Part shown: positions 1-52,950 of the stretch, one piece after another
How the letters are laid out: each line of letters starts with the position of its first letter
Position numbering within the stretch: the stretch's first letter is position 1
NCBI RefSeq assembly: GCF_030704535.1
Contig: NC_081818.1
Coordinates: 24,963,001 to 25,027,000 of the forward strand
Direction of reading: 5' to 3'
DNA length: 64,000 nucleotides
DNA from: Vitis vinifera
Taxonomy: Eukaryota > Streptophyta > Magnoliopsida > Vitales > Vitaceae
Notes under the pieces: model-generated
What the model was told of the DNA's origin: nothing
Database searches by the model: none
Seen by the model: only the letters and a program-made list of their open reading frames with translations
Program-made: the position numbers and the translations under genes

Positions 1-575
1 GATTGCCAAGAGCTCCTTCTCTTTCGCAGTATCATTATACGATTTCGATTTAGTTCAGTTTTTTTTTTTTTATCATTTATGGAAATTTTAGATTCTCAGA
101 TCTATAAATTTGATATTTTCTTGATGTTTTTCATTGCGGTAATCATCACTTTTTGATCAGGAGATGATCACTGAGAAAATATTTTCCTGTAGTTTCTCGT
201 CCTAGAAGTTTTTTTTTTTTCCTCGAGAAAGTTTGTGGTTTTTTCTTCTTCTTCTCTTCTTCTCTTGTTTCAGATCTAAGCTGAGAGGGAAGAGATGTAA
301 GATATTCGTTTCTAGGGTTACCATTTTCTTTGAGTCCGAGGTAGTTATGGATCTGTAGATCTGAATGAGTGGTTTCAAAGGATCTTTTCGGAGATCGAGT
401 GAGATATCCAGAATTTTGCCCGAGATCTTGGTTTTATAAGGAAAAAAAGCTTTGTTTAATCGAGTGTGAGAATTCAAAACCAGATCTTGGCTGTTTGTCT
501 GGAAGGTTGTGGACTTTTGGATTGGCTTAGAGCTAGATTTACTGTATCTGTAGTTTTATTGCGTGCTTTTGAAGA
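1..575 (+). promoter_or_regulatory. 5' leader and promoter-proximal region of the auxin receptor gene
   Basis: No coding sequence is visible. The stretch is T-rich and C/T-rich with poly-T runs and a pyrimidine-rich patch near 240-270, typical of the long 5' UTR of TIR1/AFB genes. Translation starts at 576. The transcription start cannot be placed, and part of the promoter probably lies left of the window. Confidence 0.5.
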
Positions 576-3500
576 ATGAATTATTTTCCTGATGAGGTTT
601 TGGAGCACGTGTTCGACTTCCTGACGTCCCACCGAGACCGCAATACGGTGTCTCTGGTGTGCAAGTCATGGTTTAAGGTGGAGAAATGGAGCAGGCGTAG
701 GGTCTTCGTAGGGAATTGTTATGCGATTAGTCCTGAAAGATTAATCGCTAGGTTTCCTAGGGTTAGAGCTCTTACTTTGAAAGGAAAGCCTCACTTTGCT
801 GATTTTAATTTGGTTCCTCCTGATTGGGGAGGTTTTGTTTATCCCTGGATTGAAGCCATGGCCAAGAGTAATATTGGGTTAGAGGAGCTCAGGTTGAAGA
901 GAATGGTGGTTTCGAATGAAGGCCTGGAGCTGCTTGCTCGATCGTTCGTGAATTTCAAGTCTCTGGTTTTAGTCAGCTGTGAAGGGTTTACCACCGATGG
1001 ACTTGCAGCCGTTGCTGCAAATTGCAGGTAGGAGCTGGCTGTTCATTTTTTAGTTTACTTTAGCTAGTATTTTTGCATATTTTTATAAGTTGTTGCCTCT
1101 TCTGTCCCTTTCATTTATTTGTTTTTATGGATTTAAGTAGTTGATGAACAACTCTCCGAGAGTCTCATGTGTCTTTCGCTTAGATTTCTGTATATGCGCC
1201 TTTTCAACCAAGTTATACTGCTATAATGATACTGATAGCTGAATAAAATTTATTTCGATATCAAAGTTTGTTTGGTTACTAGTAATTGTCCTCGGACGGG
1301 AAATTGATCGAGCTGAACCATCAGGATTATTGGTATGATTTAGGTTTTATTTCTCTCATTTATTTAGTTCAATCTTTGGGATGTTCTCAAGTGAAGCTAA
1401 AATATCCAGTAATTTGTTGTACAATCTATCAAAATGTTGAAACTCTTTATTATTGTATTCACGATTTCTTGTTGTAATTTGTCCATCAATATTTCCTGCC
1501 TTGTCTTGGTGTTTGTGCGGCTCTTTGGTTAGTTTCCTTATTCTTTCCAATCGGGAAATTGAGCGAGCTGAACCATCAGGATTATTGGTATGATTTAGGT
1601 TTTATTTCTCTCATTTATTTAGTTCAATCTTTGGGATGTTCTCAAGTGAAGCTAAAATATCCAGCAATTTGTTGTACAATCTATCAAAATGTTGAAACTC
1701 TTTATTATTGTGTTCACAATTTCTTGTTGTAATTTGTCCATCAATATTTCCTGCCTTGTCTTGGTGTTTGTGCGGCTCTGTGGTTAGTTTCCTTATTCTT
1801 TCCAATCGATGGCTTACTAATTATAGCTGCATATATCCTTTTAAGTCTCCTATTTATATGGACAACTGTCTACTGCCCTCGGTTTCGTAATTATTACTGT
1901 ATTCGTGCTTGTGAAATTCTCGTTTTAAACTTTTTTCACAGAAACATGATCTAGGATTCTGATGACTAAGAGAAAGTTAATGAATGATTAACAAGAAATC
2001 ACCACAGACAAAACAAAGAACAGATATGAGCATAGGGATGATGGCTCTGATAGTCTCAGACTCTAAACCTGGTCCAGGCAACAGATTTTCTTTCTTGTTC
2101 CCAGACCTGAAAGATCCTTATGGATCTGGAGAACAAAGAGTAAAAGACTTTTGTCTAACTCTCCATATGGTGGTAGGTGCAAACATAGTTCAAATGGACT
2201 GAATTCAAGACAATATCACACCATAAACTGTGTTTACAAAACACCCACTAATTGATCTTCAATCCGCTTGGATTGACATCCGACCCTAGTTTTTGTTTTT
2301 TCAATTTAAATTTTTAAAGCCTTTTTTTTTTTTGTCTCCTGGGTTATGAAATTTAATCAAGCTCACCAGAAAAGGGGTCTTTCCCCAATCAGGATATGTT
2401 TTTGTTCTGGATGTTACAACTTTATTCCGAAAAGATCAATACCCTTTGTTGTGGAATTTCTATGAAATAACTATTTTTGTTACTCATCTGCTGACAAAAA
2501 AATGACATGTCCTTGGAACTTCTATGGAATAACTGTTTTTGTTATTCATATGTTGGCTAAAAAGACATTTCCTTCTACTGAAAAGAGGGGTGCTTGGACA
2601 GTGGGAATATTATGGGCTAGAAATGTTGGGCTTTGGCATAGATATTAATGTATGCTTCATTTTGTTTCTCTAATCTAGGTTTCTTAGAGAGCTTGACTTG
2701 CAAGAAAATGAAGTTGAGGATCGCAAAGGCCAATGGCTTAGCTGCTTCCCTGACAGCTGCACATCACTAGTCTCCTTGAATTTTGCATGCCTCAAGGGAG
2801 AAGTTAATTTGACTGCCCTTGAAAGACTGGTGGCAAGATGTCCTAATCTCAAGAGTTTGAGGTTGAACCGTGCGGTGCCCCTTGATGCACTCCAAAGAAT
2901 TCTTATGCATGCACCTCAACTTGTGGACTTAGGCACTGGTTCTTATGTTCATGATCCAGATGCTGAGACCGTCAACAAACTTATAAGTACCTTCCAGAAG
3001 TGTAAATCAATTAGGAGCATGTCAGGGTTTCTGGAAGTTGCTCCTCTATGCCTGCCAGCTATTTACCCCATTTGCTCAAATCTGACCTCCTTGAACCTGA
3101 GTTATGCTCCAGGGATTCATGGAGATGAGCTGATAAAGCTAATCCGCTACTGCAGGAAACTTCAGCGACTGTGGGTATGAACTTTTAACCCAACTCTAGC
3201 CTCTGAAAGCAATACTCTTTTTATTGAAATGTATGACAAGTTCCCATGATTTATGCAGATATTGGATTGCATTGGAGACAAGGGACTAGGAGTTGTCGCT
3301 TGTACTTGTAAAGAATTGCAGGAATTGAGGGTTTTTCCTTCTGATCCGTTTGGGGTTGGGAATGCTGCTGTAACCGAAGAAGGTCTTGTTGCTATATCCT
3401 TTGGCTGCCCCAAGCTTCATTCATTGCTATACTTCTGCCAGCAGATGACCAATGCAGCACTCATAACTATAGCCAAGAATTGCCCCAATTTTACACGCTT

Positions 3501-4029
3501 CAGGTTGTGCATTCTGGACGCTACAAAAGCTGACCCTGTGACCATGCAGCCACTAGATGAAGGTTTTGGGGCAATTGTTCAGTCATGCAAGGGTCTCAGA
3601 CGGTTGTCCCTCTCTGGCCTTCTAACTGACCAGGTTTTCCTTTATATTGGAATGTATGCTGAGCAGCTTGAAATGCTTTCAATTGCATTTGCCGGTGATA
3701 GTGACAAGGGAATGCTATATGTACTGAATGGCTGCAAGAAGCTTCGCAAGCTAGAGATTAGGGATTGCCCCTTTGGGAACGTGGCACTTCTGACGGACGT
3801 GGGAAAGTATGAGACAATGCGATCCCTTTGGATGTCGTCCTGTGAAGTTACCCTTGGAGGCTGCAAGGTACTTGCGGAGAAGATGCCAAGGATTAATGTG
3901 GAAATTATAAACGAATACGATCAGATGGAGTTTGGCTTTGATGATAGGCAAAAAGTAGATAAGATGTTCCTTTATCGGACATTGGTTGGGCCAAGGAAAG
4001 ATGCACCACATTTTGTGTGGACTTTGTAG
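576..4029 (+). CDS. AFB2: Auxin receptor F-box protein, TIR1/AFB2-3 class
   Basis: Substrate-recognition subunit of a nuclear SCF E3 ligase; auxin glues it to Aux/IAA repressors, which are then ubiquitinated. Three exons, 576-1027, 2679-3174 and 3259-4029, join in phase to 572 residues, the normal family length. The F-box is residues 1-45 (starts [16 protein letters not shown]), followed by leucine-rich repeats to the C-terminus. Auxin/IP6 pocket landmarks known from TIR1 are present: H73, F74 and F77 in KPHFADF, the Arg in FTRFRLCIL, and the Ser-Leu in LSLSGLLTD. Intron 1 is 1651 bp and holds a 255-bp tandem duplication. A near-perfect miR393 site lies in exon 3. The N-terminus and length fit AFB2/AFB3 better than TIR1; AFB2 versus AFB3 is a judgement. 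Confidence 0.96.
1297..1806 (+). repeat. Tandem duplication (2 x 255 bp) in AFB intron 1
   Basis: Copy 1 is about 1297-1551 and copy 2 about 1552-1806, head to tail with period 255. By eye they differ at only a handful of bases, so the duplication is recent. It carries no recognisable transposon ends and does not reach either splice site. Confidence 0.93.
3811..3832 (+). promoter_or_regulatory. miR393 target site in the auxin receptor mRNA
   Basis: The 22 bases read as the reverse complement of miR393 with an unbroken 18-base match from position 3815, covering the microRNA seed and cleavage region; the mismatches (three) sit opposite the microRNA 3' end. Known biology: miR393 cleaves TIR1, AFB2 and AFB3 transcripts and starts secondary siRNA production. 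The site overlaps codons for TMRSLWM, so it is kept by protein constraint as well. Confidence 0.93.
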
Positions 4030-24652: not shown

Positions 24653-26394
24653 TAAAATTCTATAGTTTCCTCATTAAAAATGACAATAATATCACTAAAA
24701 TCATAATTTTTGGATTAGAAATAAATTTATAGAAAATTCTCAAAATTGAACCTCTTACCATACAATAAAACAAAAATAAATTACCATCTTTTCGGACAAA
24801 ATACTTTTAATCAAACTCCAAAATATAATTTATACTTGTCTAAATATCCAAATAATCAATAATTTTCAATTAACTAAAAAAATAAAAAATTAGGATTTGA
24901 TGTCTTTTACTAATTAAAAATTTAAAAATTAATGGATTAATCTCAATAATGTAATTTCAATAACAAATTCATAAATCCAAAAAATATACTAATCAATAAA
25001 ACTTAGAAAATCTCTAACATTTTCTTATCAACAAGCATAACTAGAAAACAATAATTACCATCTAATTATCATTTTATTACATAAGTACATAATTTTTTTT
25101 TATTATAAAATTTTTATTATTGAAATAAATTTTGGTATTTTGGGATATTTGGAAATATATTAATTTATTATTTTTTAATTATTAATTTTTTATAACTCAA
25201 TTTAAAAAACATTTTTTAGTTTTTATTTCCTATTTGAAAAAGAAAACATTTTATTTCTTATTTTGTTTCTGTTTTTTAAAATGCATTCCGATTATGAAAA
25301 GTGAAAACTATTTTGAAAAAATAAAATTTGTAAAATCTTGTTTGGGGTTGAATTTTCCACTAACAAAAAAAAAGTGAAAAAAAATATGATTAAAAATTTA
25401 TATAATATACATATCATGATATAAGATATATCATTAAAAAGGATAATATATTTGCTATATATATATATGGCTTTATTATTATATTGTATCTGTTCATTAT
25501 TTTTTATAATTTTTATTTTAGAATAATTTGATAAATATTTTAATATAAAAATATATTAGTTTATGATAATACATAGTCTAATAAATAAATAAAATATTTA
25601 TATCATAATTCTAAGATAATATTTGATTTCAAATATATATATATAAAAGGTCTTTTATTTTATTATTATTTTTTTTTTGTTTTTAATAGTTTAAAAAACA
25701 TTTGTTACTTCTTGTTAAAGAAAAACATTGAAAACATCAAATTGGTATTTTCATTTTTTTCAGCTCAATTTTCTAGAAAATAGAAAAATACCATCCAAAT
25801 ATGTTTTCCATCTTAATTTATAATTTTTTTTTTAAATGAAAATAGAAAACAACCTAAATAAATAGAATCTAAATATTCCTAAAACATGAAATGTGAATCA
25901 AATTCATATTTGAATTGAAATTGAGATTCTGAAGTTATTTTCTTCCTTTGTGATGTAATATTCTTTCCCTTTTCGATAAAAGGATTCATATTTTAAAAAG
26001 GTTGAAAACAAGGTCTTTCAAAATCGACTATTTATCCTTCAAATAGATCTATACATGGAAAAGCATGGATGCATTCGTTATCAGCATATTTTGAGTACCA
26101 AACTTAGAATTCAGATAGTCTTTTTCAAGTTAATCTTTGTTTTTTCCACCTTTGTAGCATAGAATACAAATAATTTCAAGACGTAGTTAGGATTTTTAGA
26201 TAGGATGCAGAGAATTTGGATGCAATCTATGTGTATTTCAATGTCTTGTGGAAAAAATATGAAGGAGAAAAGAAGTTTGTAGTGGTGCACATTCCTGATG
26301 TGAGCAGTAGATCGATGGTTTACCAATATTGGTGAGATAGTGCAGAGCAGTGTTATAAGGAAGACATGGAATGAAGGAACAATGGAATATTGGT
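24653..26394. other. AT-rich intergenic sequence
   Basis: No supportable gene. It contains poly-A/T tracts and short TA repeats (for example near 25460 and 25640). The last part, about 26110-26390, may be the 3' end of the MIR169 primary transcript on the minus strand. Confidence 0.4.
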
Positions 26395-26572
26395 GAAGAA
26401 GAGAAGGCCTAGCATGAAAGAGAAGTGCCTGTCAAGTTAGCCAAGGTGACTGCCTGAGGACCACACAGGGGTCTATAATCTATATCCCCACGAACCACTC
26501 GGGAGGAGCAGGCAAGTCATCCTTGGCTACCACACAAGGCGCTTATCTTCATGTTATACCTCTCTTCCTCTC
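26395..26572 (-). ncRNA. MIR169: MIR169 precursor, distal copy
   Basis: On the minus strand 26529-26509 spells the 21-nt miR169 of the h-n type (starts TAGCCAAGGATG, ends ACTTGCCTG) exactly. The opposite arm (26438-26456) is its near-complement TAGCCAAGGTGACTGCCTG on the plus strand, lacking two bases so the star strand bulges. The stem extends outward: the GAGAAGGCCTAGCATGAA side faces the CATGTTATACCTCTCTTC side. The loop is about 52 nt. Known role: miR169 cuts NF-YA (CCAAT-binding factor) mRNAs in drought, nitrogen and phosphate responses and flowering. The strand is fixed because only the minus strand gives the exact mature sequence on the 5' arm. Confidence 0.92.
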
Positions 26573-26613
26573 AAATTCACTCTGCAATGTCCTGCTAATG
26601 AGGGGCTCGGGCC

Positions 26614-26823
26614 GAAGAAGAGAAGGCCTACCATGAGAGAGAAGAGCCTGTAAAATTAGCCAAGGTGACTGCCTGGAACCCAAACAACCGGATTCATGAT
26701 ATATCAAATATCAAACACTACTTGGAAAAAAGAAAGAAATTGACCCACTTGGGATAGGGCAGGCAAGTCATCCTTGGCTATCAGACAAGACTCTTATCTT
26801 CATGTAAGACCTCTCTTCCTCTC
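26614..26823 (-). ncRNA. MIR169: MIR169 precursor, promoter-proximal copy
   Basis: The same 21-nt mature sequence lies on the minus strand at 26780-26760, and the same 19-nt star-side arm at 26657-26675. The outer stem words are shared with the distal copy (GAAGAAGAGAAGGCCTA and CTTCATGTAAGACCTCTCTTCCTCTC), so the two are tandem duplicates about 219-251 bp apart with diverged loops. This one has a longer loop (about 84 nt). Both are probably cut from one transcript, as known for clustered MIR169 genes. Confidence 0.92.
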
Positions 26824-26856
26824 ATTACTCATGCTCCAACACGACGCTCCGAATGT

Positions 26857-26880
26857 CTCCATATATAGGCCAATGAGAGA
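26857..26880 (-). promoter_or_regulatory. TATA box (and CCAAT motif) of the MIR169 cluster
   Basis: On the minus strand CTCATTGGCCTATATATGG: a TATATA box at about 26859-26867, roughly 40 bp upstream of the first hairpin stem. The plus-strand CCAAT (26870-26874) lies directly beside it. Since miR169 targets NF-YA subunits that bind CCAAT, feedback is conceivable, but this is inference. Confidence 0.6.
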
Positions 26881-28852
26881 ATAGAGACCAGATTCGTATC
26901 GCCACATGAATTTTCGGCACCCTCTTCTCTCGTCTTTTTGCCTTGTCCATAACCTTTTTTTTTTCCTTTTTTTTCTTCCACCTCTCATCTGCGTTATAGC
27001 TAGGTGCCCATAAAGGAATATATTCTTCTACAGTTGCAGGGACCCCATTGTATTTAAGTTCATGACCTACCAGCTCTACGGTGGGGATGCAATTTCCAGG
27101 ACAAAGATGAAAAAACCCCTCATTAAGAATTCAATTGTGGCACTGCTCTCCCTGCCACATTGCCCAAGCAACTTGCGCTGAGCCCATTTTTTGGCCCCAC
27201 CTTTTCCTCCATCAAGAGTTGCTCGATTTAATATGAGCTACCAAAGTTTTGTCCACTCCCCCATCGATTCATTAAATATTGAGATGCCAATTTTGGGGGC
27301 TCGGTTACGGCCCTGTGAGCTCAAGCTCAGCTTGGCTCACCTAAAGTGGATTTTTCCACTGAAAGATTCCGATAACTCCGGGTCCAAATTGCTGGATTTT
27401 GAGGCTAATTCGACACTGTTTTTTGAGTAAATAGTGATTTAACAAGATTAAATAGGATCGTGGAGCTAAAATTTAGCTAAATAAATATGAATGACAACTT
27501 GCAGACGGCTAAAAAGCAGCAACACCGAACCATGGCTAGCTACTCTTATCTGTTTATGTGGAACCAAGCTCTGAGTTTCTTGATCCTATCCTCATGTATG
27601 GTCCTGTCTGACGACCTGCGTGCTCTTTCCAGTATTTTCTGACCTTCTCAGTGGCTTGATATCAGATATGGCTTTGACCTCATCCCAAAGGCCGGCAAGA
27701 AAAAAGGGAAAGAAAAAGGGAAAAAAAGGAAGAAAAAAGCACAAAATCTATATAAAGAATAAAGACGTGTAATTGATTGTTGATGAGGCCCTGACAAGAA
27801 GAGATTGCGGGGTCATGCAATCCCTTCATGTCCTCTACTTTATAAGCTCAGGATTCCATTGGCGACATCAGCCCATTTGACACGCCCCACCCATAAAGTA
27901 AAGTCAATCCCTTTATTTGTTCTCATTGGATCTAATTTCTGACTCTCGTCATGCATGATGCATCCTATTGAACCCTTTTCTTTTCTTTCCTGCATAGTCT
28001 CTGCAAGCAGGCTAAGAATATAAGTATATAATGGAGTTTCATGCTCCCAAGACACCCAAGTTTTTAGGTAATTTTTCCATTAGCATCGTTAAAAAAATCA
28101 GCCTCTTAATGGGCAATTAGAAAAAGTAATTCTGCTGTATGGGAATCTTTAATGATCGTAAAACTTTATGGATCGGTCAAACAATAAGGGAATTTCTAAA
28201 ATCATGCCCCACGATAAAGGAGAAAGTATGGGAACCTTCCCTATTTATATCAGCATACAACCACCTATTTATATTCGGTCATTTAATTAAAAAATAATTA
28301 TTTTCTAATTTCATTTATTTTTAAATTTGATTTTCATAATAATAAATTTTTTATTTCAATTTTTAATTTAAAAACATTTCGAATATGGAAATGGAAATGG
28401 AAATGAAATTGATTTCGCGGGCATATTTTAAGCATATTCCAAAGGAAATCACAAATAATGACCCAGAGCCCATCACCTGATCCAGGGAGATAAATCTTAG
28501 CCTACACCCATGTATGCAAAGTCCAACCCATGGCCCAATTTCTTCCTTGTTCATCGAGTCCAATAATTTGGGCCTTGAAACGGCCCAAGGGAGGGTGTCA
28601 GCGCCAGCTTGGCCAAAAAGCGAGGATATTTTCACACGTGGGCCCCACCTATCATTATTCCCTGGCCCATTACGTGTACGGACTTTTTCAAGCTTATCAT
28701 GAGCTCATATACATCTTCTCTCGCTTTCGGGTATTAGGATTCTGATTTAAATTTCTGTATCAACTTCTCTGATATTTTTAGTAAGGTTTGATGTGATTTT
28801 TTTATCAGGTTCCACAAAAAGTGAAGAAAAAAAAACGTATCTTCTTCTAAAA
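26881..28852. other. Upstream region of MIR169 and promoter of the CONSTANS-like gene
   Basis: No protein gene is supported. About 27040-27480 and 27490-28060 look like ordinary single-copy sequence. The promoter of the gene at 28853 has a G-box CACGTG at 28635-28640, a TACGTGTA word near 28673, and several GGCCCA/TGGGCC motifs between about 28525 and 28670. G-box and TGGGCC motifs are common in light-regulated and growth-related promoters. Confidence 0.5.
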
Positions 28853-31800
28853 ATGGAAACCACGTCTAAATCCAGACCCTCTGCGGCGGTTCCCTGCGAT
28901 TTCTGCGACTCAAAAACGGCGGTTGTACACTGCAGAGCCGACTCTGCAAAGCTCTGTCTGTTGTGCGATCGACATGTGCACTCGGCCAATGCCCTGTCTC
29001 GCAAGCACCTCCGCTCACAGATCTGTGACAACTGCAGGACCGAACCGGTGTCCTTTCGATGCTTCACCGACAATCTTGCTCTCTGCCAGAGCTGCGACTG
29101 GGACTCTCATGGTAATTGCTCAGTCCCGTCTCTCCACGAGAGGACTCCCGTGGAAAGCTTCTCAGGGTGTCCCTCTCCACTCGAGCTCGCTTCTGTGTTT
29201 CGAGTGGATTTGAAGGATGGGAATTGGAGTAGTTGGAATTTCGGGTCGGTGAATGTTCAGGATTTTGTGGTTCCGGGCGAGAATTGCTATGCTGGGTGTG
29301 GTACGAAAGTAGAGAAGAACGGGATAAGCGTGGTGTATGAGCAATTGGTGGACTTAATACGGAGCGATGTGGATGTGGTGCGGGGGGATGTGGACGGAGA
29401 TGGAGATGAGGGTGAGGATGGTGCTGAACTGGGTCCAGGGACGCCGGGTAGGTGTGCTAATATGGGGAATTTTCAAGGTGTTGATTTAGATAATGGTGAT
29501 GATGAAGAGTTGTTGCGGCAGCAAACGCCGTTTACGTCTTTGCTTATGTTGCCGACGCCTGTTGATGCCAGAGACACTGGCTGTGGTTATGGTTGCGCAG
29601 TGGAAGGAGACGCTATGTGGGATCGTGGCCACCTTTCATATCAGGCACCCCAGGTTTTGTATTCGACATTGTGATGAATTGCTTCTTGTCTCTTCGGTTT
29701 CTCTAATTGTAGTGCTATGAGATTATACTTAAAAGTTAAACCCCACAATCAAACAAAAATCATAATTCAAGTGTGTGCACAGTTGCAGTAGCCTTGGAAT
29801 GAACTTCCAAGCCCTTTATTGCTTCTCTATAAATTTTCCAGTCATGTGGCATTTAAGGAGAATGCTAGTTTTGGGGATTTTTTTTTTTTTACTTTCGAGC
29901 AAGATATCCTCTAATCAATTCCAATTTTTCATCTAGCTGTCTAGTTTCATGTTTGTTGTGCTGATAACATACTGTGATATGGGTATTCGGTATGTGGAGG
30001 CCTCTTTTCCATATTTATAGTGTATGTTCTGTGAAATGTCATTTCCTAGTGGCATAAAGGTGGATGGATGATCTTCCCTCTCTTCCTTTGGCATCTGCTA
30101 GTAATAGAGCAAGCATGAACCAACATGGGAACACACCATGAACTTGTGGAATTGTAGGTTGTTGCATAGAGTTGTGAAAATCATGGTTGGGTTTTGGGTG
30201 ATTGGAAGAGTTGGTGTAAGTTTAGTTTTCAGTAGATTTGTTGGGCTCTGCAAAAAAATTTCAGCCAGCAAAGGTTTTTTTTTCATTACCCACTCCCAAC
30301 TCTATTGCCAGCAAATCTGGCAGTTTGGGATAATGCCTGTACAAACTCAGTTGTTTGCTATCGTGGTACCTATCTTAAGTGTATGCGTAAATATACTAAA
30401 GTAGTATTTGCAATGTATGTTTCTGTATTTGGTTGAAAATTTAGCAGTTGCATTTCTGTTTGTGTAATCTTGTCCAATGTAAGGGCACCTTATATGCTTT
30501 ATATTGGACTCAAATTAGAAACATGTGCTGCTGGTAATCTTCATTTGTACCCTCACAGATATGGGATTTTCATTTGGGAAGATCAAGGATTTGCAAAGAA
30601 ACTAGTCCAGAAGCAGGATACGATGTGGACAATTCTGGTTTTGTGATCAAGAATTACAGTGAAATTACCAAGGGATCTTCCTTGACAAGAACAAAAGCGT
30701 TACAAGGCATGTATGAGATGAATTGCACAACAACCCATGAGGATATCCTGTCAAAAAATGTAAGCCATTCTGACTTCTGTGAGATATATGATTAGAAATA
30801 TCATCATTCAAATCATTGCCAAAGAACATTCATACACTAATGAGTTTAGTATGTGACAATTAACAATGGTCAACTTGCTACTTGATCTGTCATGCAGGCT
30901 GTTCTGGTTGTGACTCATGATTGGAGAAATAGGATGAAGTTACTCTTATGTACTTGTTCCATTCAATTAGAGTACATGGACACATAATGGTTAAGTTCAA
31001 ATTATCAACTTATGCAAGATATGTTTTAAATTTAGTTGCAATGTTTATGGTGAAAATCAGAAATTTTATTCAGTCAAGAGTTATCCCTGTTAGGCTTCTC
31101 TTTAAAGTATGCCAATGTTTCTCTAGCTCACCATTTATGTGACAACACTTGGTTTGTAAACCTACATTTCTTAGTATCCTTTAGGTGATATGTAGCAGTA
31201 TTTGGTTACTCTGTAATTTGGTTTCTCCAGGGTTCTTTAAATTAAGGAAGAAAAAAAAAGAAGAATCGTTTATTTTGTTTGACTATTTCTTGAAATTTAA
31301 GTGCCCTCTGGGACATGGCTCTATGATTTACTCCAAGACTGGTGGTTTAGGCACTCCTTTGAACCATGTGGCAATCTGTAAGGGGTTAGAATTTTGTTCA
31401 TGCTGCCCTTTTGAGAAGCACACATCGCACTATTGCTGTGAGTTCAGTGAAGATACAGGAACTCCTGATGGAGGAAATGGGATTGGGGTTATAGTGGCCC
31501 CATTTCTCAAAAATGTGAACAAACAAAGGCTCTATGTATAATATCAGCCTAAGGAACTCCTGATGGAGGAAATGGTATTGGGGTCATGGTGATGGTGAGC
31601 CTACTTCTCAAAAATGCAAGCAACAGAGGCTGTAAACGGGTTTGCAGATCTCAGTCTCTTATCTATAATATTAGTCTTACTATTGACATAACATCATAGT
31701 TTATGAATTTATTTGTTCTTTCATGGATTGTTTTTATCACAGCTGGTATTTATAAGCCTGATTAAAAAAAATGCAGAGTCATTCAAATAAAGCATTGTCA

Positions 31801-39689: not shown

Positions 39690-41700
39690 TTAGTCATTAT
39701 TTTCTGGCGGTGATGGCGAACTATCATGCATCCATGAAGATCTTAATAATTTTAAAGATTCCATATCGGCAAGCATCTTTGTTTCTCGAATGGAATCGTA
39801 CATCATTTTATTTGCTATTTCCCAATCTTTCACACATATCCCTGCTTCAATAACATCTGGCGCTAAGTTGCATCGTTTTTTACTAACTACTCTTCCACTT
39901 GCACTAAAAGCAGCTTCTAATGCAATTGTACTCACAGGAACTGTTAGTACATCACGAGCAATTATAGAAAGTACAAGATATTTGTGTTGATGTGATTTTC
40001 ACCATATTAAAATATCAAAATCTTCTTGATCTTCAAATGAAATTATATCAGTATTAAGATATTTATCTAAATCAGATGTATTATTTGGAGAATTATTTGT
40101 TGTCTTTTTTCGACTTTTCAACATTTCTAGAGCTCCTTTATAAAAAGATGAGGAGTTTGTAGATGTAGGTGGTAATTTAATAGTATTAATATCATTACCA
40201 TATTTTTCTTTATAATAGTTATATAAATTATATAATAATGAATTTATTTCATTTTTAATTTCTTCAATTTTTATTTGGTCATTAAAATAAATAATTGTTA
40301 ACCATTCATTCAAAGCTTCAAATTTCAATCTAGGGTCCACAATTAAAGCAATATAAAAAATTAAAGGTATTTCTCCCCAATATTTTCTAAATTTTTCTAT
40401 CATTGCAAATATTGTATCATTAAATATTTCAAAACTTAAATATTTTTGAAGTACAATAAAAATATTAGTTATTTGCATAATAATTCGATTTGAAGTTGGA
40501 TAATATACACCACAAAAAATGTTTGTTGAAGTATCAAAAATTTCAAAAAGATCTCTTAAAAGATCCGCAATATGCCAATCATAATCATTTAATGCATAAA
40601 TATCTGCTTCATAATCATTGTTAATTAATTGTATTTCATATAATTCGACTACTTTTCTATATTTTGTAATATTTTGTAAAAGTTTATATGTGGAATTCCA
40701 TCTAATGGTCATGTCCAAATTTATATTTTTTCTTTTCATATTTAACATTTTGCAACAATAAAAAAATAATTCATGTTTTTCTTGAGAACTATTAATACTA
40801 TATGCAATGCCTCTAATTTTTTCCAATGTACTATCAATATTTTTTAATTCATCCTTTACAATTAAATTTAAAATATGTGCACAACAACGCACATGAAATA
40901 TTTTAGCATGATCTTCTTTTACTTGTCAATATCGTTTTAGTCTATGTATTGTTGCATCATTATTAGCAGCATTATCTAATGTTATTGTCAATATTTTATC
41001 ACGAATGTCTAAATCTATAATTTCATCATTTATTAAAGATGCTATATTTTTACCACTATGTGGAGCATTTATTAATTTAAATGAAATTATTTTTTTATTT
41101 AATTTCCATTCATTATCAATGTATTGAGCAGTTATACATAAAAAACCAGTGTGAGTTAAAGATGTCCAAATATCAGATGTTAAACAAATATTTCCTTCAA
41201 AATTTGCAAAAAAAAATTTTAAATTTCTTTTTGTGTATAAATTTTTTTCATAATATCTCTTTTAACTATATTTCCAAACCAACCTTTAAATTGAGGATTA
41301 ATACCTCGTTAAATTGTTCCTGCAAAATCATGAGTTTCCATCATGTTGAAAGGTTGTTCTGCTCTTATTATATAATCAATCATTTCTTCACGACAGTTAG
41401 ATTCATCATAAGAAAATGTTTTTAAATTTCCACTTTCATTTTTACCTAATTGCATATAATTTCTAATATCTACATTATTTTTAGTTTTACAATTTTCATG
41501 ATGTCTTTTTAAATGACTTATGTCTGCATTTGAGCCACCAGTAAGAAATTTATTACAAATTTTACATTTTGCTTTTATTTCTTTTTTATTATTTTCTAAA
41601 ATTATTTCTATTCTATCAAAAAAATTTCATATATTTGAAGTAAATTTTTTGTTTGATAATATTTCATCATATGGACTATATGAAAAAGCACTTGTCATAT
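39690..41700 (-). pseudogene. hAT transposase remnant
   Basis: Reads right to left. The N-terminal part with the BED finger (about 41440-41700) and the middle are broken by several stops. The longest open stretch, 39999-40892, codes 297 residues of the RNase-H-like/hAT catalytic region; a frameshift or stop separates it from the dimerisation domain ending at 39690 (ends SPSPPENND). AT-rich codon use differs from neighbouring host genes. Could be bound or mobilised in trans only through its ends. Confidence 0.88.
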
Positions 41701-48625: not shown

Positions 48626-51600
48626 TGGTATCAGAGCAATTCCTTCTGTTCATTCTCTGATATTTTTTTTGATGACTTGGGGTAATCAACCAAATCAACG
48701 CGCTGTGATTGGATCATCTAAAGTGTCAACAATGGAGGATGTGAGTAGCCCTTTTTTTCTTCACAATGGTGATCATCCTGGACTCATCTTTGTCTCACAC
48801 AACTTAACTGGGAGCAATTACAACACATGGAGTAGAGTTATGGCCATGGCATTAACAATGAAAAACAAGATCGGTTTCATTGATGGAACCATTTCTCGTG
48901 CAGCTCAAACCAATCTCCTCTTTAACGCTTGGAATCGCTGCAATAGCATGGTGACCTCGTGGATTATCAACTCTGTTTCAAAGGATATTGTAGATAGCTT
49001 GATGTATATTGCTATAGCAGCCAAGATCTGGATCGATCTGCTGGATCGTTTTCGACACAGCAATGCTCCTCGGGGTTTTCAGCTCAAGAAACATCTTACA
49101 ATGCTTTAGCAAGGATCTCTTGACATTAACACTTATTACACCAGATTCAAGGTTCTTTGGGAAAAACTCAAGAATTTTCAGCCATTACCGGCTTGTCATT
49201 GTGGAGGTTTACAAGCGTGGTTAGAATATCAGCAGTAAGAGAATGTGGTTCAGCTTTTAATCGTCTTAAATGATTCTTATGCCCAGACAAGGGGTCAAAT
49301 TTTAATGATGGAGCCTCTTCCACATCTGTCAAAGGTTTTTGCATTGGTTATCCAATAAGAACGACAACGATCTATCAACAATGGAATTTCATCTTTGTCG
49401 GAGCCTCTTCATCTGGGTAATACAGGTTCTGCTTCGGTTAATGCTCATATTGGGAATTCAGCTTCTAAGGGAAAACGTGAGCGACCTCAGTGTAGCCATT
49501 GTGGATTGTAGGGTCATACCATTGATCGCTATTACAAATTGCATGGATACCCACCTGGGTACAAGCCCATATTCAGGACTCAATTGGGCCAGGCCCAAGC
49601 TAATCAGGCCATTTTTGTTGTGTCTGAGGATTTAGGAACCACAAATATGATGCTCAACAGTCTCTCCCCTAGCCAGTGCCAGCAACTAATTACCTTTTTG
49701 AGTTCACAACTACAACATAGCTCACCTACAATTGTGGAATCGCAACAACATGATGGTCCCTCAGTTTCTAGTTTCAGTGGTAAATTGACTTTCTCTTCTT
49801 CTTATAATTCATTCCCTCATAATTCATGGATTTTGGATACTGGGGCAACACACCATGTATGTTGCTCCCTTAATTTGTTCAATAATTTTTTCCTGTCCTT
49901 CAATTCAAGCGTTACTCTTCCCACTAGTGAATATATTACTATTACTCGTATAGGATTAGTCGAGTTATTTAACCATTTCACTCTTGAAAATGTCCTGTAT
50001 GTTCCACAATTTCGATTCAACCTCATTTTGATTAGTGCTCTCACTCAATCTCATTGTTGCTTTGTCAAATTTGAGTTTGAATCTTGTTTCATTCAAGACC
50101 GTATGCAGAGGCAAATGATTGGGATAGGTAGGCGCGATGGGAATCTCTATGTTTTGGATCCAGCCAATCTTTTTCCCACACTTGCTCACACCTCAGGTCT
50201 TTGTAATAATGTTTCTAAGACTAATCATGAAATTTGGCATACTCATTTAAGCCACCCTTCCTATGTAAGACTTAATATGTTGAAAAATATATTGAATTTC
50301 AAGCATATTGTTGATCATTCACCTCATTGTTCTATTTGTCATTTGGCTAAACAAAAATGGTTGCCTATTCCCATTTCCAATTTTGTTTCACAATGTCCCT
50401 TTGATTTGTTGCATATGTCTACATATAGGGTGCTTTTCATTTACCAACACATGATGGTTTTCAATATATCCTGACAATTGTGGATGATTATTCTCGCTTT
50501 ACTTGGGTGTACTTGTTAAAATCAAAATCTGATGTCAATAGTATTTTTCCTGCCCTTTGTACTCTCATTCACACACAATTTGGGCCCAACATTAAATCAG
50601 TTCGTAGTAATAACGCACCCGAACTTGCTTTTTCAGATTACTTTTGTAAAAAGGGGATTTTGCCATTCCACTCATGTGTTGACACTCCTTAACAAAATTC
50701 TGTGGTAGAGCATAAGCATCAACACCTTTTGAATGTGGCCCGAGCATTACTGTTTCAATCCAATATTCCTCTAGTTTACTAGGGTGATTGCATTTTAACA
50801 TCTACTTATCTCATAAATAGAATTCCATCTCCCATTCTTTCTAATAAAACCCCATTTGAAATTTTGTACAATAGAGTCCCCTCATATAGTCATCTCCATG
50901 TCTTTGGATGTCTATGTTATGGTTCTACACTAGCACGTCATCGTACCAAACTCTCACCTAGAGCCATTCATTCAGTATTTCTTGGGTACCCATCGGGTTA
51001 CAAAGGTTATAAATTGTTGAATCTTCCCATTAATGTCATATATATTACTCGGGATGTTATCTTTCATGAAACATCATTTTCTTTTCAATCCAACGGTTTG
51101 TCTTCCATTTTTTTTTTTTTCTGACAGTGTCCTTCCATCATCCCATTCCAGTACATTTCGTTCACATTTTCCTTCTTTTATTGATTCTAATCCAACCACT
51201 TCCACTAAGTCCCATGTTTCTTCTACTTCTCGGCCAACTCGTGTAACTAGACCACCAACTTATCTTCAAGACTACCACTATTATTCCGCCACACTTGCTT
51301 CCACAGCTACCTTATATCCACTCTCTAGTGTTCTTGGTTATGACAAACTTCCCCCTTCACATCAGGCTCTTGTCCATGCCATTTCTTCTCATGTTGAGCC
51401 AACTTCTTACACTCAAGCTGCTATGATTCCAGAATGGTAGGAGGCTATGAGAGCTGAACTCCATGCTCTTTAGGAGAATGGTACTTGGTCCTTAACAACT
51501 TTGCCTCATGGAAAATGGGCTGTGGGATGTAAATGGGTGTACAAGCTCAAGCTTCGAGCTGATGGGTCTCTTGAGTGGCATAAAGCTCGACTAGTTGCCA

Positions 51601-52950
51601 AAGGGTACACTCAACAAGAAGGTGTGGATTACATTGATACTTTCTCACCTGTTGTAAAATTGGTAATTGTTAAGCTTTTATTGGCTTTAGCTGCTATCCA
51701 CAGCTGGTTTCTCGTTCAATTAGAAGTCAATAATGCTTTCTTTCACGGTGATTTAACTGAAGAAGTTTATATGAGCTTGCCTCAAGGGTATTCACATGAG
51801 GATGAGACACTACCATCTAACAATGTTTGCAAATTACACAAATCAATTTATGGCTTAAAGAAAGCTTCAAGGCAATGGTTTGTTAAATTTTCTGGTGTTT
51901 TATTGGACAAAGGATTTACTCAACCAACCTCAGATCATTCATTGTTTACCAAGCATAGTGGTTAGTCATTCCTTGCATTGCTAGTGTATGTTGATGACAT
52001 TGTCATTGCCGGCAATGATTATAGAACTATTGAAAAGCTAAAAACCTTCCTTGACAATCAATTTAAGCCGAAGGATCTCGAAAAACTCAAATACTTTCTC
52101 GGTCTTGAAGTTGCCAGGTCACGAAAGGGTATCTCTGTTAGCCAAAGACACAATGCACTTCAATTATTATCAGATTCTGGTTTTTTAGGTTGCAAACCTG
52201 CAAGCACGCCCATGGAGGCTAACATTAATATATCACAAGATGATAGAAAGTTATTGGAGAACCCCAACTTGTATAGACGTCTAATTGGCAAGCTCTTATA
52301 TCTTACAATCACACGACCAAATTTGGCTTACTCAGTGAATCGTCTCACTCAATACTTGGCCAGCCCTATATCAACTCATCTGTAAGGAGTTCATCGAATT
52401 CTACAATATATCAAGGGTACAGTAGGGCAAGGTCTTTACCTTTATGCTACATCATCAATTCATCTTAAGGCTTCTGCTGATTCGGATTGGGGAGCTTGCA
52501 AAGATATGAGGAGATCCATTAGTGGTTTTTGTGTCTTCCTTGGGGACTCCTTAATCTCATGGAAATCTAAGAAACAGGGCATTGTTTCTCGATCTTCAGC
52601 TAAGGTAGGATATCGAGCAATGGCCAACGTGACTTGTGAGCTGATTTGATTGACTACTCTTCTTCGTGATTTTAGTATTCAAAGCAAAGAACCTATTACA
52701 CTGTTTTGTGACAATGAAGCGACTCTTCATATTGCGGCTAATCCTGTTTTCCACGAAAGGACGAAGCACATTGAAATCGATCATCATCTTATCCAAGAGA
52801 AGATACAAGTAGGTTGTCTCAAAACAATGCACGTGTCCTCACAGCATCAGCTTGTCGACCTTTTCATCAAGGCTCTATTTCCAGCACAGTTCAAATATCT
52901 CCCCAGCAAGATGGGAATTCATAATCTTCATTCTCCATCTTGAGGGGGAG

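Follow-up and report, generated by a model that had tools for sequence, protein, structure and literature searches.

We detected two adjacent hairpins of the miR169 family on the minus strand of contig C14 of grapevine (Vitis vinifera), in a window of 64,000 nucleotides (C14:24963001-25027000, the whole stretch of DNA analysed) from a scanned genome of 495.6 Mb in 21 contigs. Considered jointly, the observations are, with high confidence, best explained by a tandem MIR169 gene that yields vvi-miR169e, most likely gives rise to one RNA and would target NF-YA, and in which hairpin 2 was copied or homogenised after the split between this locus and its relatives on C17 and C1. The features of the pair are:

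26614-26823, minus strand: hairpin 1, MIR169 precursor, the 5'-most in the transcript (fold and RF00645)
26395-26572, minus strand: hairpin 2, MIR169 precursor (fold and RF00645)
26760-26780, minus strand: mature miR169 (h-n type), 5' arm of hairpin 1 (exact match)
26509-26529, minus strand: mature miR169 (h-n type), 5' arm of hairpin 2 (exact match)
26657-26675, minus strand: star-arm 19-mer of hairpin 1
26438-26456, minus strand: star-arm 19-mer of hairpin 2
26861-26867, minus strand: TATATAT, a TATA box that may be the pair's core promoter (position -87 relative to the 5' end of the mature)
26870-26874, minus strand: ATTGG (CCAAT inverted), 2 bp upstream of the TATA box

The earlier note had claimed an exact 21-nt h-n-type miR169 on both 5' arms, an identical star arm shorter by two bases, and loops of 52 and 84 nt, all of which were borne out. 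The mature 21-mer (TAGCCAAGGATGACTTGCCTG) is the same in both hairpins, as is the 19-mer star arm (CAGGCAGTCACCTTGGCTA), while the loop measures 84 nt in hairpin 1 and 52 nt in hairpin 2. In the local folds of each hairpin, 19 of the 21 mature bases are paired, with single-base bulges at bases 10 and 16, which is why the star is two bases shorter; the miRNA/star duplex thus has few unpaired bases in both hairpins (2/21 of the mature). The lower stem is also well paired in these folds, with 35 (hairpin 1) and 34 (hairpin 2) of the 43 nt 5' of the mature in pairs. A pattern scan of the genome with TAGCCAAGGATGACTTGCCTG, allowing up to two mismatches, found 15 places, only two of them exact and both corresponding to hairpins 1 and 2, and the reversed 21-mer, used as a control pattern over the whole genome at the same tolerance, found none.

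Folding as minus-strand RNA, which the note had proposed as a check, placed the mature sequence in a stem each time, at energies far below those of shuffled sequences: -87.9 kcal/mol for hairpin 1 (z -8.28) and -79.7 kcal/mol for hairpin 2 (z -5.40), with none of 200 shuffles as good in either case. For each hairpin length, 300 segments drawn at random from the window all folded less well, the best of 210 nt reaching -85.4 kcal/mol in a control that kept segments overlapping the hairpins. Besides, the Rfam model RF00645 (MIR169_2) scored 64.9 bits for hairpin 1 and 58.5 bits for hairpin 2 on the minus strand, against a cut-off of 50. By the sequence-level tests made here, both hairpins are MIR169 precursors.

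Putative targets of the expected kind are present in the same genome. A search for the NF-YA domain gave 14 exon matches, which were paired into seven genes, and six of the seven carry a complementary miR169 site with 3-5 mismatches, on the gene's own strand and beyond the domain exons. For the NF-YA gene on C10, no miR169 site was found within 6 mismatches in the 1.5 kb flanks. At the sites observed, miR169 would direct cleavage of the NF-YA mRNA downstream of the domain exons.

The mature sequence also connects the pair to published grapevine loci. Mica and colleagues listed 25 grapevine MIR169 loci, A to Y, of which only MIR169E has this mature sequence (PMC2822795), and a correction has since replaced table data that it calls unreliable (PMC2831844). 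In the corrected table, MIR169E is given as a 22-nt form, i.e., this mature plus one 3' C, with 1 leaf read, and none is given for MIR169X or MIR169Y (PMC2831844); the first version of the table gave MIR169E 8 reads (PMC2822795). The extra 3' C is present in both hairpins. According to the same table, MIR169E has a precursor signal in leaf and an array signal in leaf, inflorescence and berries (PMC2831844; column meanings in PMC2822795). The mature strings at C14, at C17:823582 and at C1:26802960 are those published for MIR169E, MIR169X and MIR169Y, respectively (PMC2822795, PMC2831844). The C1 locus came from the pattern scan and is not one of the 43 Rfam matches. Since the published table has one locus with this mature, whereas the genome scanned here has two, one of the hairpins appears without a name there, and the second copy may lack a published name. 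An earlier genome paper placed miR169 loci, often clustered, on linkage groups 1, 4, 8, 11, 14 and 17 (PMC2147077), and a later atlas adds 32 members to 13 families that were already known, listing them in its supplements (PMC4434875).

The C14, C17 and C1 loci were read as homoeologues because they have neighbouring genes in common. Grape chromosomes 1, 14 and 17 presumably form one set of the ancient eudicot triplication. C17 and C1 share an armadillo-repeat gene (74% over 1234 columns), and C14 and C17 share a CASP-domain gene (38-47% protein identity), both in comparisons among these loci only. Two further genes lie in the window:

28751-29671, plus strand: B-box gene frame (CONSTANS-like group II), divergent from the pair (PF00643 in two stretches)
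573-4026, plus strand: TIR1/AFB-type auxin F-box gene in three open frames, a linked marker (PF18791 and PF18511 in the first frame)

The B-box gene, at 24.99 Mb on C14, has its best non-self match at C1:26788609-26789391 (26.79 Mb, minus strand), with 206 bits vs 122 for the next match, on C7, and it is divergent from the miRNA on C14 and on C1. No CCT part was found for it in the frames scanned. It is probably BBX12b, judging from its match and position: VviBBX12b has been placed on the plus strand of chr14 at 25.08 Mb, and VviBBX12a on the minus strand of chr1 at 23.24 Mb (PMC8008696). The AFB gene lies ~22 kb from the C14 pair, and its last frame has matches of nearly the same score on C7 (366.5 bits) and at C1:26876682 (362.2 bits), the latter being ~74 kb from the C1 miRNA. 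The shared neighbours suggest homoeology of the three MIR169 loci, which is nonetheless not clean, given that C7 also carries an AFB-type frame (C7:2737245-2738018, plus strand) and a B-box frame (C7:2766124-2766423, minus strand) ~29 kb apart. As the C7 AFB frame scores as well as that of C1, an older duplication of the neighbourhood is likely, and the C7 region is perhaps an older duplicate without the miRNA; neither the Rfam nor the pattern search gave a MIR169 match near these frames.

The three loci also have an upstream TATA box in common. The earlier note had pointed to a TATA box about 40 bp upstream of the first stem and a CCAAT box beside it, and both stand: TATATAT lies ~38 bp before the stem of hairpin 1, with ATTGG 2 bp away. 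The C17 and C1 loci have the TATA box TATAAATAG at -100 and -103, so that each of the three homoeologues has one TATA box between -87 and -103 from the mature. At C17, ATTGG lies 5 bp upstream of the TATA box, and the C1 locus has a CCAAT 27 bp upstream of its own. CCAAT boxes usually sit further from TATA than at C14. The scan took in the 300 bp 5' of the mature at 26 loci: C14, C17, C1 and all but one of the 24 other distinct hairpins over the Rfam cut-off, L011 being left out because it did not match the anchoring motif. Of these 23 other hairpins, 21 have a TATA box, and the 35 bp upstream of the box contain neither CCAAT nor ATTGG in any of the 21; two (L024 and L025) have CCAAT without TATA. 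Within 150 bp of the TATA box, CCAAT or ATTGG occurs in at least 1 of the 21 (L023), a count in which far-upstream TATA boxes are partially covered. In the background set (the window and six fetched stretches, with the C14, C17 and C1 cases included), CCAAT was found within 10 bp of 7 of 465 TATA boxes, within 35 bp of 28 and within 150 bp of 128; in the window alone, with runs unmerged, 3 of 352 TATA boxes have CCAAT within 10 bp.

A further group of MIR169 hairpins in this genome is an array on C11:

C11:16353063-16716344, plus strand: C11 array members L003-L006, L008, L009, L011-L017, L019-L023, L026 and L027 (Rfam)

Of the 27 distinct hairpins that exceed the Rfam cut-off, 20 fall in this stretch of ~363 kb, and all 20 have their best score on the plus strand. 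The array resembles the C14 pair in belonging to MIR169, in its tandem expansion and in having a TATA box upstream in the 19 members scanned. It differs from the pair in that no member has the exact mature, the copies are ~2 kb or more apart, and none of those 19 has a CCAAT in the 35 bp preceding its TATA box.

These data lend slight support to the hypothesis of NF-Y feedback on the pair, which we treat as a hint only, because the CCAAT-TATA test was made after the motif had been seen, the C11 loci are not independent of one another and NF-Y binding is putative. A bolder proposal, which we consider unlikely, is that the e/x/y-type MIR169 loci keep an ancient core promoter, with CCAAT adjoining TATA or standing just before it, through which NF-Y would directly set the transcription of this clade and not of the C11 array, a built-in feedback since the homoeologue split. 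In titles and the beginnings of abstracts, we found no report of NF-Y acting on a MIR169 promoter; the relevant passages of one study discuss CCAAT boxes in NF-YA-responsive promoters, with NF-Y action on MIR169 absent from them (PMC3485258). If the CCAAT-TATA arrangement binds NF-Y, the miR169/NF-YA feedback would be directly testable via promoter mutation.

The orientation of the pair had to be considered, since the plus strand scores more Rfam bits. On the plus strand, RF00865 (Rfam MIR169_5) matched both 26418-26548 and 26637-26799, and its two scores, 78.3 and 77.0 bits, exceed those of RF00645 on the minus strand; antisense MIR172 pairs have been reported in grapevine (PMC4434875). The plus strand could then be the real source, or a second one, with an antisense hairpin yielding a miR169-like RNA. 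On the other hand, the E-values favour the minus strand (RF00645, 3.9e-16 and 6.7e-14, vs RF00865 on plus, 6.4e-14 and 1.4e-13), the complement of a good hairpin will always fold too, and the conserved TATA box faces the minus direction. The antisense origin was set aside on NF-YA pairing: in ungapped comparisons, 8-9 bases of each of the six NF-YA sites pair with the 5' product of the plus strand, vs 16-18 with the minus mature. We therefore regard a plus-strand source as very improbable and favour the minus strand as the source of the miRNA. The RF00865 consensus itself reads like the complement of standard MIR169.

With the minus strand as the source, a single polycistronic precursor for both hairpins is likely on the layout of the locus, given the TATA box upstream of hairpin 1, the gap of only 41 nt between the hairpin stems, in which no TATA was seen, and the tandem arrangement of the Arabidopsis pairs. 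RNA polymerase II would start ~30 bp after the TATA box and produce one capped RNA with both hairpins, from each of which DCL1 would cut the same 21-nt miR169, so that the pair would double the dose of one miRNA. We judge it unlikely that a separate promoter, within the gap or hairpin 1, drives hairpin 2, which would make the locus a cluster of two separate genes and not a polycistron. A weak ATATATC run in the loop of hairpin 1, a TATAAC in the stem of hairpin 2 and the presence of an own TATA box at 19/19 scannable loci of the C11 array speak for two genes, whereas the short TATA-less gap and the positional conservation of the TATA box upstream of hairpin 1 in all three homoeologues speak against them.

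When the whole region was folded as one (26376-26835, minus strand, 460 nt), the hairpins cross-paired into one long fold-back of -187.5 kcal/mol vs -180.2 kcal/mol for the local folds, a gain of 7.3 kcal/mol, with the mature sequences in stems either way. A transcript is usually expected to fold locally while it is being made, and the two-hairpin model was kept for this reason. In titles and the first parts of abstracts, no report was found of a grapevine MIR169 polycistron or of its location.

The origin of the tandem pair by local duplication, as the note had suggested, is well supported by the folds, the Rfam matches, the arm identities and the aligned duplicated unit (26824-26614 vs 26573-26395, 71% identity over 211 columns, diverged loops included). 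The two hairpins are 89.4% identical in the 5' arm and 86.6% in the 3' arm, while hairpin 1 shares 80.6% (5') and 70.0% (3') with C17, hairpin 2 shares 76.1% and 68.6% with C17, and either hairpin shares 64.2/55.9% with C1. Being closer to each other than to C17, the hairpins point to a copying that postdates the homoeologue split or to homogenisation of the arms, and gene conversion of the arms would mimic a young duplication. A tandem pair predating the split is disfavoured, the hairpins being nearest each other in both arms. A second hairpin at C17 or C1 was not found by BLAST in the 30 kb fetched around each locus. Because it adjoins the TATA box, as do the C17 and C1 hairpins, hairpin 1 looks like the old position, and hairpin 2 like its local copy, which arose or was homogenised once C14, C17 and C1 had split.

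Local duplicates often decay, and one of the copies, hairpin 2 more probably than hairpin 1, might be a decaying hairpin that is no longer processed; the weaker z-score of hairpin 2 and its slightly greater distance from C17 fit such a fate. Yet the mature and the 19-nt star are identical between the copies though the loops have diverged, which suggests selection on both copies or a recent conversion of the arms, and we hold decay to be improbable.

In layout (same strand, adjacent, identical mature), hairpins 1 and 2 match an Arabidopsis pair of the m/n type. Arabidopsis miR169i/j, k/l and m/n are in tandem, miR169h and miR169a are monocistronic, and promoter fusions were made per pair (PMC3485258). 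In the same study, a fragment carrying both fold-backs of the m/n pair led to more mature miR169 and to less NF-YA2, 3, 5 and 10 (PMC3485258). The likeness to i/j, k/l and m/n thus comprises two tandem fold-backs, one identical h-n mature and NF-YA targets, and it rests on arrangement, not on hairpin sequences; unlike grapevine, with one pair, Arabidopsis has three (PMC3485258). By this analogy, the pair is a sound but ordinary case of an arrangement already described in Arabidopsis. For a crop-type genome, it offers a clean miR169 unit of two hairpins, one of which is possibly missing from published lists, and, with the single locus on C17 and the more diverged single locus on C1, a series for comparing dosage and promoter divergence.

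The neighbourhood itself may be old. AFB2, which we take to be At3g26810, adjoins the Arabidopsis MIR169i-n block. The block has the locus numbers At3g26812-26819 (PMC3485258). The AFB-MIR169 neighbourhood in grapevine and Arabidopsis suggests an old linkage. Calvino and Messing reportedly described, in 2013, a bHLH gene beside a MIR169 pair; in our Pfam search of 20 open frames, picked by length or homology (17 from the window and 3 from C17/C1), there was none. A tRNA scan returned no tRNA. Elsewhere in the window, a hAT-like transposase fragment lies at 40002-40925 on the minus strand and a copia-type reverse transcriptase frame at 51474-51962 on the plus strand.
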